Shown: positions 1,039 to 30,116 of the stretch, one piece after another | Position numbering within the stretch: the stretch's first letter is position 1 | How the letters are laid out: each line of letters starts with the position of its first letter | Assembly (NCBI GenBank): GCA_015709595.1 | Contig: CP054178.1 | Location: 2,609,205 to 2,673,204, forward strand | Origin: Phycisphaeraceae bacterium | GTDB lineage: Bacteria > Planctomycetota > Phycisphaerae > Phycisphaerales > SM1A02 | DNA length: 64,000 nucleotides | Reading direction: 5' to 3' | Made by a program: the position numbers and the translations under genes | The notes under the pieces: generated by a model | The model's database searches: none | Seen by the model: the letters and a program-made list of their open reading frames with translations, nothing else | Told to the model about the DNA's origin: nothing

Positions 1039-1794
1039 ATGACCATCGCGCCCGTGGCGCTGATTACCGGGGCCGGCTCAGGCATTGGTCGGGCCACGGC
1101 GATCCGGCTCGCCTCGCACGGCTGGCGGCTGGCGCTGGTCGGACGGCGCGAGGAGGCGCTTCAGGAGACGATCCGGCTCGCGGCATCAAGCGCCCCCGGC
1201 GATCTTGACTTCATGTTGATCCCGGTTGATCTGTCCGACGTGGGAGCGGCGGAGGGCGTCATCGACGCCACGCTCTCGCAATTCAAGCGGCTCGACGCGC
1301 TGATCAACAACGCGGGCATGGGCGAGCGCGTGCCGATCGACGCCACCACGCCCGATCTGCTGGACCGCACCTTCGCGCTCAACACCTTCGCCCCGGCCAT
1401 GCTGATCGCCGGCGCGTGGAAGGCGTGGAAGCGCCAGCGGCCGCTTCGAGGCGCCCCGTCGCCCTGCGTGGTCAACGTCTCCTCGATGTCCACCATCGAC
1501 CCGTTTCCCGGCCTGATGGTGTACGGCGGCAGCAAGGCCGCGCTGGAGAGTTTCACGCGCTCGATCATGAACGAACGCGGTGCGACGGGCGTGCGGGCGT
1601 TCTCGATCGCGCCGGGGGCGGTGGAGACGCCGCTGCTGCGTCGCGTGTTCTCCAGGAAGGAGGCGCCTCCCTCGATCGCCCTCGAACCCGACGACGTGGC
1701 CGTTGAGATCGTGGCCTGCGTGCTGGGCGACCGGCCCCGATCCGAGGGGCGCGTCACCATGCTGGTGAAGGGCAGGCCCAGGCGCGTGGTGTAG
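1039..1794 (+). CDS. Short-chain dehydrogenase/reductase (SDR)
   Basis: This 251-residue protein has a classical SDR layout: the cofactor-binding motif TGAGSGIG near residue 11, NNAG near residue 90, an active-site Ser in NVSSMS, and YGGSK with the catalytic Tyr and Lys. An Arg after the second strand (GRREEAL) suggests NADP(H) preference. A GAGAGGGGGA ribosome-binding stretch precedes the ATG. It follows the site-2 protease gene by about 107 bases on the same strand. The substrate cannot be predicted. A second SDR of the same size is encoded on the opposite strand 1.3 kb downstream. Confidence 0.88.
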   Translation: MTIAPVALITGAGSGIGRATAIRLASHGWRLALVGRREEALQETIRLAASSAPGDLDFMLIPVDLSDVGAAEGVIDATLSQFKRLDALINNAGMGERVPIDATTPDLLDRTFALNTFAPAMLIAGAWKAWKRQRPLRGAPSPCVVNVSSMSTIDPFPGLMVYGGSKAALESFTRSIMNERGATGVRAFSIAPGAVETPLLRRVFSRKEAPPSIALEPDDVAVEIVACVLGDRPRSEGRVTMLVKGRPRRVV

Positions 1795-2003
1795 CGTTGC
1801 CGTTCGTGCGATCTGGGTAAAGAGGGCGGATCGTGCGGGTCAGTCCGATCGATGTTCCTGCCAAGCCCGGCGGAACGTTTGCGATGCGTCTTCTGGATTG
1901 AACCCTTGCCATGGCCGCGCTCGCACCGTTTGCGGGCCGGCACATGGGCCTTGTTCGCCCTCAGGGGTCAACGTGCCGGAGGCACGACGGGGTGAGACAA
2001 GGC

Positions 2004-3068
2004 ATGGAACGCGAACGGAACTCGCTGTTGATCGTTGATTCGGATGCGCGACGTGCGGAGCGCATGCGGCTTGCCCTGGAAGGCGGCGGCGCGTCAGCCG
2101 CCAACGGGGAGAGAGCGGCCGGCGCATCATGGCGATGCCGCGTGGTCAGGTCACTGGCTGAACTGGCGACGGAGAATCTCGGCGGCCACGTGATGGCGCT
2201 GTGCGACATGTCGCTGAAGGATGGCACGGGCATCGATGCGCTGGCGTACATCCGCGGCGCCCAGCCGGGGCTGCCCGTGGTGCTGCTGTGCGAGGAAGTC
2301 AACGCATCGCTGGCGATGGAGGCGACGCTCGCGGGGGCGATCGACTGCCTGTCCCGGCACGACCGGCTGCCGCAGCGCCTGCCCGCGGTGCTGGCTCGCT
2401 GCCTGGCTCTGCACGAAGTGGTGGCGGAGCGCGAGCGCATGCAGAAGCGGCTCAGCCAGTCCGTGGCCCAACTGGCCGACGAGGTGACGCAGCTTCAGAA
2501 CATGATCTCCAACCTGGAGGCGGCGGCGGTCACCGATGAACTCACCGGCGTCCACAACCGGCGCCAGCTCAACATGGCCATCGACCAGTGCTGGCTGCGC
2601 GGCGAGCGCAAGGGCGAGGCCATGGCCTTCCTGATGATCGACGTGGATCGCTTCAAACACTTGAACGACGAGCTGGGGCACCAGGCCGGCGACGCCCTGC
2701 TGCGCCTGCTCGGTCGCGTACTGCGCGACAACACCCGGCAGACCGACGTGGTGGCCCGCTACGGCGGGGATGAGTTCTGCGTGGTCATGCCCCACATCGG
2801 CGTCGAGGAGACGCTGGGCATCGCACGCCGCATCGCGGACGCCTTCGAGCAGGCGGCGGCGGGCTATCCGACGTCGTTCGGACGCGTGGGGTTGTCGATC
2901 GGCGTGGCGCACACGCTCATCAGCCGGCCTTCCCACGCCGCCCAGCTGGTGGCGCAGGCCGATGAGGCCATGTACCACGCCAAGCGGCAGGGCGTGCGCG
3001 TGATGGCGCGCGGCGAGAACGGGCTGCTGGCGGTGGAGAACGGGCCGCGGGGCGATGCAACGGGCTGA
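2004..3068 (+). CDS. Response regulator with GGDEF domain (diguanylate cyclase)
   Basis: The N-terminal receiver domain (about residues 1-125) begins LLIVDSD and has a probable phosphoacceptor Asp68 in ALCDMSLKDG. The conserved Lys normally found near its end appears to be Arg (CLSRHD). A helical linker rich in Glu and Gln (about 130-170) leads to a GGDEF domain with the intact motif GGDEF at 254-258. An inhibitory I-site RQTD lies exactly five residues before it (245-248). It therefore probably makes cyclic di-GMP and is product-inhibited. I chose the ATG at 2004 because the receiver strand starts right after it; longer in-frame starts upstream give an unrelated extension. The PilZ protein at 21.7 kb is a possible c-di-GMP reader. 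Confidence 0.9.
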   Translation: MERERNSLLIVDSDARRAERMRLALEGGGASAANGERAAGASWRCRVVRSLAELATENLGGHVMALCDMSLKDGTGIDALAYIRGAQPGLPVVLLCEEVNASLAMEATLAGAIDCLSRHDRLPQRLPAVLARCLALHEVVAERERMQKRLSQSVAQLADEVTQLQNMISNLEAAAVTDELTGVHNRRQLNMAIDQCWLRGERKGEAMAFLMIDVDRFKHLNDELGHQAGDALLRLLGRVLRDNTRQTDVVARYGGDEFCVVMPHIGVEETLGIARRIADAFEQAAAGYPTSFGRVGLSIGVAHTLISRPSHAAQLVAQADEAMYHAKRQGVRVMARGENGLLAVENGPRGDATG

Positions 3069-3083
3069 CCGCCGCTCACGACG

Positions 3084-3857
3084 CTACCGCTGCTGCGCCG
3101 CCGGTCTGACCAGGATTTCGTTGATGTTCACGTGGCTCGGCGCCTCCAGGGCGAAGAGGATCGCCCGCGCGATGTCCTCGCTCGTCAGCGCGCCGGGCAT
3201 GCCGGTATACCACGAGCGGATCGTGTCGCGCAGCGTCTCATCCGTGGTCGACTCCGGCAGCTCCGTGAGCACCACGCCCGGGGCGATGATGGTCACGCGG
3301 ATGCCGTGCTCGGGCGGCGTCGCTTGCGCGAGTTCCGCCCGCAACCCCTCGGAGATGACGTGCAGCGCGTGCTTGGTGGCGCAGTAGACCGCGTTGCCGG
3401 GAAAGACGTGGCGCCCCGCCACGGAGCTCACGTTGACGATGTGTCCGCGATGCTGACGCTGCATCACCGGCAGCACGGACCCGATGGCGTACAGCGCACC
3501 CTTGACGTTGATGTCGATCATCCGGTCCCAGTCGTCGAACCGGCGCGCGGCGATGGGCGACACCGGCATCACCCCCGCGTTGTTGATGAGGATGTCCACC
3601 CGGCCCCACGCCATCATGGCGGCGTCTACCACCGCCTGCACGCGGCCCCGGTTGCGCACATCGCAGTAGAAGTCCATCGCGGTCCCGCCAGCGGCCTCGA
3701 TGCGCTCGCGCAGGGCTTTCAGCCGTCCCTCGCGCCGGGCGCAGAGAACGACCTTCACCCCGCGATCCGCCAGCGCCAGGGCTGTGGCCTCACCGATGCC
3801 GCTGCTGGCGCCGGTGACGATGGCGACCTGATCCCGCAACGAGGTTGAATCGGACAT
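3084..3857 (-). CDS. Short-chain dehydrogenase/reductase (SDR), YdfG-like
   Basis: A 257-residue classical SDR with TGASSGIG near residue 15, an ARR stretch after the second strand suggesting NADP(H), NNAG, an active-site Ser in NVSSVAG and YCATK. The C-terminus includes a segment (SEDIARAILFALEAPSHVNINEI, quoted here only as the SEDIARAI...NINEI pattern) typical of the serine/3-hydroxy acid dehydrogenase-like SDR group. It is convergent with the diguanylate cyclase gene, with only about 15 bases between the stops. The substrate is uncertain. Confidence 0.88.
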   Translation of the reverse strand: MSDSTSLRDQVAIVTGASSGIGEATALALADRGVKVVLCARREGRLKALRERIEAAGGTAMDFYCDVRNRGRVQAVVDAAMMAWGRVDILINNAGVMPVSPIAARRFDDWDRMIDINVKGALYAIGSVLPVMQRQHRGHIVNVSSVAGRHVFPGNAVYCATKHALHVISEGLRAELAQATPPEHGIRVTIIAPGVVLTELPESTTDETLRDTIRSWYTGMPGALTSEDIARAILFALEAPSHVNINEILVRPAAQQR

Positions 3858-23083: not shown

Positions 23084-24283
23084 TCAGGGGGTCGATTTCC
23101 CCCGCAGGAAGACCCAGACGTACCCGTTGGTCTGGTACTGCTGGGGCTGATGCTTCTGCATTTCCTCCGCCGCTGAACGCAAGGCCGAGAGAATGACCTG
23201 ATACTCCTGTTCGCGTTCCTTCAACTTGGCCGCCGGGTTGTCGCCCAGCGATTCGATGAAGGACTGGTACCGGGCCATCACCTCGGCGTAGTTCTTTTCC
23301 GCCTGCTCGCGCCTGGCGCGGACTTCGTCAGTCTCCGGCTTGGCGTCCACCGGCCGGGAGTTGAAGTCGCCGGCAATGAGGTCGAGCAGACCATCGCCAT
23401 TGTAGTCCGCGACGTTCACCTTCATCCGCATGCCCCAGGGCTTGTCGGATGAAACCGTGAAGCCGCTGGTCATCACGGGGGGCACGAGCGCCTGGCCCGC
23501 CTCCAGCGACGGAGCGCCTTTCTGGCCGGTGTTGCGGTACCAGGTGATGCTGCCGTCGCCGGCGCCGACGATCAGGTCGTGCTTTCCGTCACCATCCCAG
23601 TCGGCGACGGTCGGCCCCGCGTCGCCATGCCCGACCTCGACGCGTTTGCCGCCAGCCGACAGGGCCGCCGGTTCGCCGAAGCGATAGGACGTGCGCGTGC
23701 CCTCGTTGGGCACCAGGTGGACGTGTCCCTCGATGTTGCCGATCAGCAGGTCCAAGTCCCCGTCCTCATCCCAGTCGCAGGCCCACACCACGCTGGCGGA
23801 GCCGACGTTGATCTTCTTGCCACTGGCGTCGGTCAACTGCTCCGCTTTGGCGAAGGCCCCTTCAGCGTCGCCCCGGAAGATGTAGATTTCGCCCGGCCAG
23901 GAGCCGGAGATGATGTCGCGGTAGCCGTCGCCATCGAGGTCCACAACCTGTGGACCGAAGCCGACGCATCAGCCCGACGGCACAACCCCGAAGTCGTGCT
24001 CCGTCTTGAAATACTCGAAGTCGCGGAACTCGGGCTTCTCGTTGCTGCCGTGGTTCCGGTAGATCCGCAGTCGGCCCTGGCCGAACTGTCCGACGAGCAG
24101 GTCGGTGACGCCATCCCCGTCGAAGTCGCACAGGAACGGTGCGGCGTGCCCGATATCCACGTTGATCGGCTTGCCGTCCGCCTCGAGCCGGATGGGGGCC
24201 TCGAGACGAATATCCGACGCCGACGCGAGGCCGGCGGCGGCGAGCGCCGAAGTGCTCGCGAGCATCATCAGTTGTTTCCGCAT
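23084..24283 (-). CDS. Secreted FG-GAP beta-propeller selenoprotein (in-frame UGA read as Sec105)
   Basis: One 399-residue reading frame broken only by a UGA at 23971-23969 (codon 105). It has a signal peptide (MRKQLMMLASTSALAAAG), then five FG-GAP/VCBS-like repeats with DxDxDG calcium loops (DFDGDGVTD, DLDGDGYRD, DWDEDGDLD, DWDGDGKHD, DYNGDGLLD) and a C-terminal charged helical tail. The repeat pattern continues unbroken across the UGA, reading VPSG-Sec-CVGFGPQ, a Sec-Cys pair between blades 1 and 2. A bacterial SECIS hairpin follows 19 bases after the UGA. An AGGAGA ribosome-binding site precedes the ATG. The gene is divergent from selD. Without recoding, it would be called as a 104-residue fragment plus a second fragment from a GTG at 23944. 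Confidence 0.85.
23938..23956 (-). promoter_or_regulatory. SECIS element of the FG-GAP selenoprotein gene
   Basis: On the minus strand GGTCCAC and GTGGACC form a perfect 7-bp stem around the loop AGGTT. Nineteen bases separate the UGA from the loop. Bacterial SECIS elements lie directly 3' of the UGA, with an apical stem-loop about 16-37 bases away and a G in the first two loop positions; this fits. The element would recruit SelB with Sec-tRNA. Confidence 0.85.
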
Positions 24284-24553
24284 GTCCAGTTCTCCTGATC
24301 GACCTGCATGAAACGAAGCGACGCCCGGTTCGTCCCGAGCGGCATCACGATTTGTGATTTCCCTGAGGTGTCGCAGGCCGCCGTTCGGGGCCGGTGCAGC
24401 GCCGCCAAAGGCAGCGCGCCAGGGACAATCGTGGTACCCTCGGGCTCATGTCGAACTCCTCGGTCGGTAGGGCCCGTCCACCGACGACAGAAGCATATCC
24501 TACCACAAGCGGTCGGCAAGGTGCAAGCCGCTTCTCCACCAACTGCGAGAAAA
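24284..24553. other. Divergent intergenic region between the two selenoprotein genes
   Basis: This 270-base region separates the start of the FG-GAP selenoprotein gene (minus) from the start of selD (plus), so it must hold both promoters. I looked for a tRNA-Sec gene and saw none. A TATCCT at about 24494 could be a -10 box, but no clear -35 partner was found. Confidence 0.5.
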
Positions 24554-25603
24554 ATGAACGAATCCCGTAAAAAACGCCTCCTGAACTACGCCAGCTGCGC
24601 GGGTTGAGCGGGGAAACTCTCCGCCTCGGCGGTTGCACAGGTTGTGCAACACCTTCCCCTGTCCAGCGACCCCAACCTGCTTGTCGGACCCGAACATTTC
24701 TCCGACGCGGGCGTCTATCGCCTCGCCGACGGACTGGCCATCGTGCAGACCGTGGATTTCTTCCCGCCCATCGTGGATGACCCGTACACCTACGGCCGAA
24801 TCGCCGCCGCCAACTCGCTCAGCGACGTGTACGCAATGGGAGGACGTCCGGTGACGGCGATGAACATCGTGGGCTTTCCCGACCAGGAACTGCCCATGGA
24901 GATCCTCTCCGACATCCTGCGGGGCGGGGCGGAGCGCGTCCACGCGGCGGGGGCGGTGACGGTGGGGGGGCACTCCGTCCGCGACAACGAAATCAAGTAC
25001 GGGCTGTCGGTCACGGGCGTGGTGGACCCCGCCCGCATGTTGACCAACGCCAAGGCCAGGCCGGGCGATGTCGTTGTGCTGACCAAGGCGCTGGGCACGG
25101 GATTCGTCACCACCGCCAACAAGGCCGACCGCTGCCCCGCGGTCACGCTTGAGGCGGCGGTGGCAAGCATGGTCACGCTCAACGACGCCGCCTCGCGACT
25201 GGCCGTGGAGCTGGGCGCCCACGCCGCCACGGACATCACCGGTTACGGGCTGTCCGGACATGCCTGCGAAGTCGCCAACGCGAGCGGCGTGACGATCGAG
25301 ATCGACCTCGCATCGCTTCCCCTGCTGACGGGCAGCGAGGAGTTGGCAGCGCCTCTCAACTTCACCCGGGCCAACAAGGCCACGCGCGGCTTCCTCGAAG
25401 GCCGCATCCGATGGGTTGGCACGCCGGATGATCTGCGAACCGCCTACCTGTTCGACCCCCAGACCTCCGGCGGGCTGCTGGTGTCAATCGACCCCGCTCG
25501 CGGCGAGGAGTACGTTCGTCGCTGCCGCGCCGCGGGAGCAACGGCGACGACGATCGTGGGCCGGGTGCTTGAACAGGCGGGCGTGGATTTGATTGCCCGC
25601 TAG
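24554..25603 (+). CDS. selD: Selenide, water dikinase, itself a selenoprotein (Sec18)
   Basis: SelD makes selenophosphate, the selenium donor for Sec-tRNA. The frame runs from the ATG at 24554 through an in-frame UGA at 24605-24607 to 25603 (349 residues, normal family length). The active-site region reads SCAG-Sec-AGKLSA, matching the Sec form of the family motif CxGU/CxxK. Downstream are the ATP-binding landmarks TVDFFPPIVDDPYTYGRIAAANSLSD (start and end pieces of this) and YAMGGRP, VTVGGHSVRD and TDITGYGLSGH. A 7-bp SECIS hairpin with AGGTT loop lies 31 bases after the UGA. Starting only after the UGA would lose the catalytic motif. Confidence 0.93.
24632..24650 (+). promoter_or_regulatory. 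SECIS element of selD
   Basis: GTTGCAC (24632-24638) and GTGCAAC (24644-24650) pair perfectly around the loop AGGTT (24639-24643). The loop begins 31 bases after the UGA, inside the accepted window. The loop is identical to that of the divergent FG-GAP gene. Confidence 0.88.
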
Positions 25604-25717: not shown

Positions 25718-26086
25718 ATGCCCAACCCTTCCCTCCTCGAAACCTTCCCGTCTCCCACCGCGTCGTCCTTCGTCATCGAACACGTGTCGGAGGAGTTCAC
25801 GTCGCTCTGCCCCGTGACGGGCCATCCGGACTTCGGGCGCATCACGCTGCGTTACGTGCCGGGTGAGACGTGCGTGGAGCTCAAGTCATTGAAGCTCTAC
25901 TACCAGAGCTTCCGCAACGAGGGCATCTTCTACGAGGCGGTGACCAACCGCATCCGCGATGACCTGGCCGCCGCCATGCGGCCGCGCTGGATGCAGGTCA
26001 TCACCGAGTGGAAGGGTCGCGGCGGGATTCACTCGCGCATCATGGCGACGTTCGGCGAGGTGCCGACGGCGTGGTCGCGCGGCTGA
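25718..26086 (+). CDS. queF: NADPH-dependent 7-cyano-7-deazaguanine reductase
   Basis: A 122-residue unimodular QueF that reduces preQ0 to preQ1 in queuosine synthesis. The active site is visible: Cys31 in SLCPVTGHPDFG (thioimide-forming) with Asp38, and the family motif ELKSLKLYYQSFRNEG for NADPH and substrate binding. It lacks the N-terminal module of the long E. coli form. Located 114 bases after selD; a tandem repeat lies between. The ATG at 25718 gives the usual N-terminus. Confidence 0.95.
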   Translation: MPNPSLLETFPSPTASSFVIEHVSEEFTSLCPVTGHPDFGRITLRYVPGETCVELKSLKLYYQSFRNEGIFYEAVTNRIRDDLAAAMRPRWMQVITEWKGRGGIHSRIMATFGEVPTAWSRG

Positions 26087-29747: not shown

Positions 29748-30116
29748 ATGCCGCAGTTCGAGATCGCCATCGAGCGGGTGTTTCCCGCCGCGCACGCCAT
29801 TGTGATGCGGGGTGAGCGCGAGACGCTGCATGGGCACAACTGGGTTGTGCGCGTCGTCGTGGCGGGTCATGCCCTGGATGCGGACGGCCTTCTCGTGGAC
29901 TTTCACGAACTCGAACGATTGCTCGACGCGATCGTGGCGCCGTTCCGCAACGCCAATCTCAACGAGGCGCCGCCGTTCGATCGGCTCAATCCCACGGCGG
30001 AGCGTCTGGCCGAGCACGTGGGCGTCGAGATGGCTCGCCAGCTCCCCAAGGGCGTCGCGCTGGTTTCCGTCAGCGTGACCGAAGCCCCCGGCTGCGTGGC
30101 TACCTACCGACCCTGA
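29748..30116 (+). CDS. 6-pyruvoyl-tetrahydropterin synthase family protein, PTPS-III type
   Basis: A 122-residue T-fold protein with three zinc-binding histidines (His16, His28, His30). The catalytic Cys that QueD/PTPS enzymes carry four residues before HGH is absent; here the motif is RETLHGHN with Glu25. That matches the PTPS-III subtype, known to make 6-hydroxymethyl-dihydropterin for folate and to replace FolB. It lacks the hallmark of a queuosine QueD although queF is 3.7 kb away. The likely role is folate synthesis; confidence in the subtype is moderate. Confidence 0.75.
   Translation: MPQFEIAIERVFPAAHAIVMRGERETLHGHNWVVRVVVAGHALDADGLLVDFHELERLLDAIVAPFRNANLNEAPPFDRLNPTAERLAEHVGVEMARQLPKGVALVSVSVTEAPGCVATYRP

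Follow-up and report, generated by a model that had tools for sequence, protein, structure and literature searches.

A likely exported FG-GAP beta-propeller selenoprotein with a putative redox-active selenocysteine-cysteine pair

The stretch of DNA analysed here (the window; 64,000 nucleotides from a Phycisphaeraceae bacterium) carries a gene for an FG-GAP beta-propeller protein that is interrupted by an in-frame UGA at codon 105. We conclude that this UGA is very likely read as selenocysteine (Sec); the assignment is near certain in silico, where it rests on conservation, and there is no experimental selenium evidence for it. Taken as a whole, the observations are best explained by an exported FG-GAP selenoprotein with a redox-cycling Sec-Cys pair, a reading that we consider likely, again without experimental evidence of selenium.

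Read on the minus strand from 24283 to 23084, the gene consists of an ATG, 104 codons, UGA, 294 codons and a closing UGA at 23084-23086 (codon 400); its features and those of the neighbouring selD gene are listed in Table 1. The UGA at codon 105 is the sole internal stop in frame 0, and the other two frames contain 11 and 4 stops. GC3 is 0.875 ahead of this codon and 0.861 past it; because the two values are nearly equal, the coding signal is continuous across the UGA. With the UGA bridged, Pfam places FG-GAP repeats in the same frame on either side of it, PF13517 matching the protein in four stretches (E=2.8e-31), and five DxDxDG calcium motifs begin at residues 53, 115, 170, 228 and 293. Standard ORF calling cuts the gene into pieces of 104 and 286 aa. 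An earlier note, made from the sequence alone, had described one in-frame UGA at codon 105 of a 399-residue protein, the surrounding residues VPSG-U-CVGFGPQ, and homologous FG-GAP repeats on both sides in the same frame, with neither frameshift nor decay. All of these observations held, the motif exactly; the strand, which had not been stated, proved to be the minus strand. The note had also placed a hairpin with an AGGTT loop 19 bases after the UGA. That hairpin is real, as GGUCCAC-AGGUU-GUGGACC, and the distance was partly correct: 19 nt fits the start of the loop, and the stem starts at 12 nt.

Table 1. Positions of the features discussed, numbered from the first letter of the window
Feature	Position	Strand	Details
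FG-GAP beta-propeller selenoprotein CDS (very likely)	23084..24283	-	399 aa, terminal UGA; Pfam FG-GAP_3 E=2.8e-31
In-frame UGA, very likely Sec105	23969..23971	-	95 homologs: 72 UGA, 20 Cys
Cys106 codon, invariant partner of Sec105	23966..23968	-	Cys in 62/62 alignment rows; 92/95 homologs
AGGAG, ribosome-binding-site-like motif	24292..24296	-	8 nt upstream of ATG; from upstream sequence
Signal-peptide-like N-terminus, ~22 codons	24218..24283	-	Basic, hydrophobic helix 2-19, ASA; from sequence and model, no dedicated cleavage prediction
bSECIS hairpin GGTCCAC-AGGTT-GTGGACC	23938..23956	-	Loop 19 nt past UGA, stem 12 nt past UGA
Helical hairpin, residues 319-378, inserted in fifth (last) blade	23150..23329	-	AlphaFold2 model
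selD, itself a selenoprotein gene (CAGUAGK), divergent neighbour	24554..25603	+	TIGR00476 E=3.1e-106
SelD Sec18, in-frame UGA	24605..24607	+	Sequence
selD SECIS, apical part GCACAGGTTGTGC	24635..24647	+	Shares CACAGGTTGTG with the FG-GAP gene

The hairpin, for which an 8-bp stem closed by a GGU triloop is an alternative reading, has the properties of a bacterial SECIS (bSECIS) element. For the 47-nt RNA starting at the UGA, the folding energy is -23.6 kcal/mol, with z = -3.1 relative to dinucleotide-shuffled sequences, and none of 300 synonymous-codon resamplings of the gene produced an equally long hairpin at that place. The published bSECIS model (PMC13188914) specifies a loop of 3-9 nt, a stem of 4-16 bp, a spacing of 16-37 nt, a G within the first two loop positions and an MFE of at most -7.5. 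These rules are satisfied: the element has a 5-nt loop (AGGUU), 7-8 bp, a spacing of 19-20 and a folding energy of -23.6 kcal/mol. A search of Rfam gave no match to a SECIS family.

We searched 400 genomes from the order and 392 from the phylum, and obtained 95 homologs in which the Sec column could be read. Of these, 72 have UGA at the column, 20 have Cys and 3 have Gly; within one phylum, the UGA form reaches about 28 taxonomic families. In 71 of the UGA genes, a Cys codon comes directly after the UGA, and in the remaining one (L101:461-1465, plus strand) Sec is followed by Arg; the three Gly sequences, all distant, read Gly-Cys. In an alignment of 62 sequences, both positions of the site are invariant when Sec is counted as Cys, as are the calcium-site aspartates and the structural glycines. 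Divergent W-U-C subfamilies, with the motifs VPGVW-UC-TSSTPQ and NNW-UC-IGM, are Sec-only in our sample (L054, L053, L056, L107, L112, L117, L127, L110 and L126). A sequencing error is ruled out, because 71 homologous genes among the 95 compared have this UGA as well.

We constructed a maximum-likelihood tree of the homologs with the Sec-site residue masked. The Sec, Cys and Gly states require 5 changes on this tree, as compared with 21 for shuffled labels, and at least 4 changes are forced by well-supported branches; therefore, Sec and Cys have been swapped more than once. selA was present in all 8 tested genomes with the UGA form and in none of 13 tested genomes with the Cys form (VPIT-CC-VSF). 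We regard this co-occurrence as strong but non-independent evidence, since some of these 13 are incomplete and they are related to one another.

The hairpin follows the same division between UGA and Cys genes. Under a strict rule (stem of at least 5 bp, loop 16-22 nt past the codon), 65 of 72 UGA genes have it and none of the 20 Cys or 3 Gly genes does; the 7 Sec genes that fail the rule still fold. When compared with synonymous-codon resampling, UGA genes have a mean z-score of -1.8 and Cys genes one of -0.1. Across the seven-pair stem, the UGA genes have 87% of cells paired and the Cys genes 46%; when the 3' arm is shifted by 1-3 bases, pairing in the UGA genes falls to 28-43%. Shuffling the 3' arms gave 416 +/- 3.5 pairs against the observed 434/497, a value reached in none of 2000 shuffles. 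At stem pair 18/26, A-T, G-C and G-T interchange across the UGA genes.

The source genome (3.84 Mb, one contig, 99% complete) encodes selA (524 bits), selB (335 bits) and selD (349 bits), together with a tRNA-Sec whose anticodon is UCA. The start codons of selD and the FG-GAP gene are separated by 270 bases, an adjacency seen only at the window locus among 49 loci compared. Ordinary ORF calling begins selD too late (319 aa from 24644), because this gene also holds an in-frame UGA. Genes resembling QueF and PTPS (QueD-like) lie near selD on the plus strand (window 25718-26086 and 29748-30116), suggesting genes for queuosine synthesis.

The same genome encodes a second Sec-type FG-GAP paralog (L052:3671-4675, minus strand; G000:C1 ~2158670-2159674), a protein of 335 aa with the motif VPPS-U-CIGF and its own SECIS. 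The apical SECIS sequences are GCACAGGTTGTGC in selD, CCACAGGTTGTGG in the window FG-GAP gene and CCACAGTTTGTGG in the paralog. We infer, without binding data, that an apical hairpin common to two unrelated coding sequences reflects a requirement for recognition by one SelB. The apical motif SCACAGKTTGTGS has 4 matches genome-wide, which is not above a reversed-pattern control (4); three of the 4 are the two FG-GAP genes and selD, and the remaining match (L175) lies antisense within an unrelated gene. The only Sec users found in this genome are the two FG-GAP selenoproteins and SelD, the full selenoproteome not having been scanned, and the genome's FdhA-like matches contain no UGA. Because so few Sec users were found, the FG-GAP family may help to explain why this lineage keeps its Sec machinery. 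Thus the selenoprotein reading put forward in the earlier note is supported, all of the refuting tests that were run (resequencing excepted) having favoured Sec. The homolog column holds only Sec or Cys, save for the three distant Gly sequences, and the absence of selA, selB and selC, which would have refuted the reading, was not borne out, with selA, selB, selD and tRNA-Sec all found.

An AlphaFold2 run on the 62-sequence alignment gave a model with a mean pLDDT of 93.6 and a pTM of 0.88. We read the model as five predicted blades, each with one DxDxDG motif, preceded by an N-terminal signal-like helix (residues 2-19). Sec105 and Cys106 are predicted to lie in an extended loop ahead of the first strand of blade 2 (residues 112-114); the model does not show that they face the central channel. 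A Foldseek search of the PDB returned generic propellers only, the best five-bladed match being the GH62 structure 5b6s (TM 0.45/0.55), and no structure bearing a Sec-Cys-type site was recognised among these matches. To our knowledge, none of the listed PDB relatives of the FG-GAP propeller has a Sec-Cys or Cys-Cys centre.

A thiol-redox role for the Sec-Cys pair outside the cytoplasm is likely, by inference from fusions and gene links in relatives, and its substrate is unknown. We prefer this role because relatives show DsbD_N fusions, a fusion to a Sec-peroxiredoxin, an overlap with a TlpA-like gene and a nearby flavin disulfide-reductase-like gene. DsbD_N (PF11412) is C-terminal to the propeller, above the curated cut-off, in L058, L042, L041, L046, L097, L093, L092 and L128, and its Cys pair is retained in the fused relatives. 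A Q-x-C...C motif of the DsbD_N kind occurs in 16 homologs (5 Sec, 11 Cys) and requires 5 changes on the tree; hence, the fusion has been gained or lost repeatedly. One chain of ~744 aa (L097, ~1181-3412, minus strand; G588) comprises the propeller with its Sec-Cys pair, DsbD_N and a Bcp-type peroxiredoxin whose peroxidatic site (TPGUT) holds a second UGA. Elsewhere, a Cys-type propeller-DsbD_N gene (L168:6916-10007, minus strand; G281) overlaps, by ATGA, a gene for a TlpA-like redoxin (WCGPC), and in L058 a gene for a flavin disulfide-reductase-like / 4Fe-4S protein lies three genes upstream of a Sec propeller-DsbD_N gene on the same strand. The window protein itself contains neither PF11412 nor any other extra domain, and its genome encodes two further DsbD_N proteins. 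The redox role therefore leans on relatives, because the window protein lacks DsbD_N and the family has no conserved gene neighbourhood. The earlier note had inferred a redox or metal-binding role outside the cytoplasm; the domain fusions independently support the redox part, and metal binding is still possible.

A conserved operon partner was considered and rejected: the neighbours of 49 loci were clustered, and ~40 were annotated, with no recurrence except for phosphate genes in a few lineages. These phosphate genes (ppk polyphosphate kinase, Ppx/GppA, PhoU) adjoin the propeller genes of L057, L058, L059, L060 and L130, and are not family-wide. Genes for a DUF547 protein and a small membrane-like protein also lie upstream of the propeller gene, on the same strand, in L058:1104-5189 (plus strand).

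In the mechanism that we propose, SelB would bind the hairpin just downstream of codon 105 and deliver Sec-tRNA, and the UGA would be read as Sec, a step for which there is in silico conservation and no experiment; translation would then finish at the UGA of codon 400. The product would be an exported, five-bladed FG-GAP (calcium-site) beta-propeller selenoprotein, and the loop leading into blade 2 would hold Sec105 and Cys106 as a vicinal selenolate-thiol / selenenylsulfide pair. This pair would most likely alternate between reduced and oxidised states as a thiol-redox centre outside the cytoplasm. We infer that a DsbD/TlpA-type electron relay, of the kind fused to the propeller in several relatives, would reduce the pair, and that the reduced pair would in turn reduce a substrate or feed a peroxiredoxin. 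Without Sec machinery, the pair would be built as Cys-Cys. A bolder reading, which we could as readily doubt as accept, is that these are phylum-wide exported selenoenzymes in which a calcium propeller with a catalytic vicinal selenenylsulfide passes DsbD-type electrons to peroxides or oxidised envelope targets.

The alternative that survives best accepts the selenoprotein and regards Sec-Cys not as catalytic but as a site that binds or handles soft metals (Cu, Hg, Cd), or as a redox-inert structural bridge. Vicinal thiols bind soft metals. The scaffold, one of whose loops carries the pair, binds calcium and otherwise serves to bind ligands, and single relatives have as a neighbour a heavy-metal-ATPase-like gene (L148, GLTCASC motif) or a NosD-like beta-helix gene. 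However, neither neighbour recurs beside the propeller gene; further conserved Cys or His residues that could complete a metal site were not found (His46 is 76% conserved, and there is no other conserved Cys); and the repeated DsbD_N fusion, together with the one Sec-peroxiredoxin fusion, indicates electron transfer. We consider this alternative unlikely. It is less likely still, indeed very improbable, that the UGA is decoded as another amino acid, through a recoded genome or insertion of Cys or Trp. Homologs do carry Cys at the site, but in this genome UGA keeps its stop function, since it closes this very gene at codon 400. Moreover, the genome has the full Sec machinery and the gene a SECIS-type hairpin, whereas no such hairpin occurs in the Cys-type genes and no selA in the 13 Cys-type genomes tested. 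Finally, the view that codon 105 is a true stop in a decayed, mis-sequenced or two-piece gene, to which the 104-aa and 286-aa pieces from ORF calling lend support, is all but excluded by 72 divergent genes that share the UGA at this codon, by Cys as the only common alternative, by the covarying hairpin, and by an unchanged GC3 and a frame that stays open past the UGA.

By present inventories, the FG-GAP propeller is very likely a new selenoprotein family, although an earlier mention in the supplementary tables of PMC4807772 is not excluded. Table 1 of PMC13188914 (2026) lists 119 prokaryotic selenoprotein families and subfamilies, among which we found no FG-GAP, VCBS or beta-propeller entry and no match to the UC motif. 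NCBIfam (June 2026) has no family above cut-off for these proteins, the one weak match being far below its cut-off. Searches of the open-access literature (preprints and supplements excluded) for selenoprotein or selenocysteine with FG-GAP or VCBS returned unrelated reports or nothing at all, a pattern search of a database with one protein returned generic FG-GAP proteins only, and tblastn against plasmids returned generic VCBS-type proteins only. The family would add a large, widespread group and a new fold to the known selenoproteome, and offers a putative case in which selenium is used outside the cytoplasm by a protein far removed from the thioredoxin fold. In genomes that have it, standard annotation splits the gene at the UGA. 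The tracking of Sec/Cys switching with the presence of selA makes the purpose of selenium directly testable.

Several known systems bear comparison with the window protein. Integrin-alpha type FG-GAP propellers (PF13517, PF01839) share its repeat family and DxDxDG calcium motifs. The integrin alpha propeller has seven blades, a criterion that the window protein does not meet, with five blades and a helical insertion in its model. PQQ quinoprotein dehydrogenases are eight-bladed, PQQ-dependent propellers with a vicinal Cys-Cys disulfide. They are cited as a lead only: they too have a vicinal Cys pair in a propeller, but no sequence relation was found. For DsbD/ScsB/TlpA/peroxiredoxin relays, the connection is through relatives fused to DsbD_N, one of which carries a peroxiredoxin as well, and through a relative whose gene is coupled to a TlpA-like one, whereas the window protein is without these domains; a DsbD/ScsB system with a selenium propeller was not found in the literature searched. 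With the catalogued selenoproteins (PMC13188914), the window gene shares the same decoding logic, that is, UGA, a bSECIS 16-37 nt downstream, SelABCD and Sec/Cys exchange. Many of the catalogued proteins are thiol-redox proteins, and most of the characterised entries have a thioredoxin-like fold, whereas the window protein has U-C in a propeller loop, rather than UxxC or CxxU.
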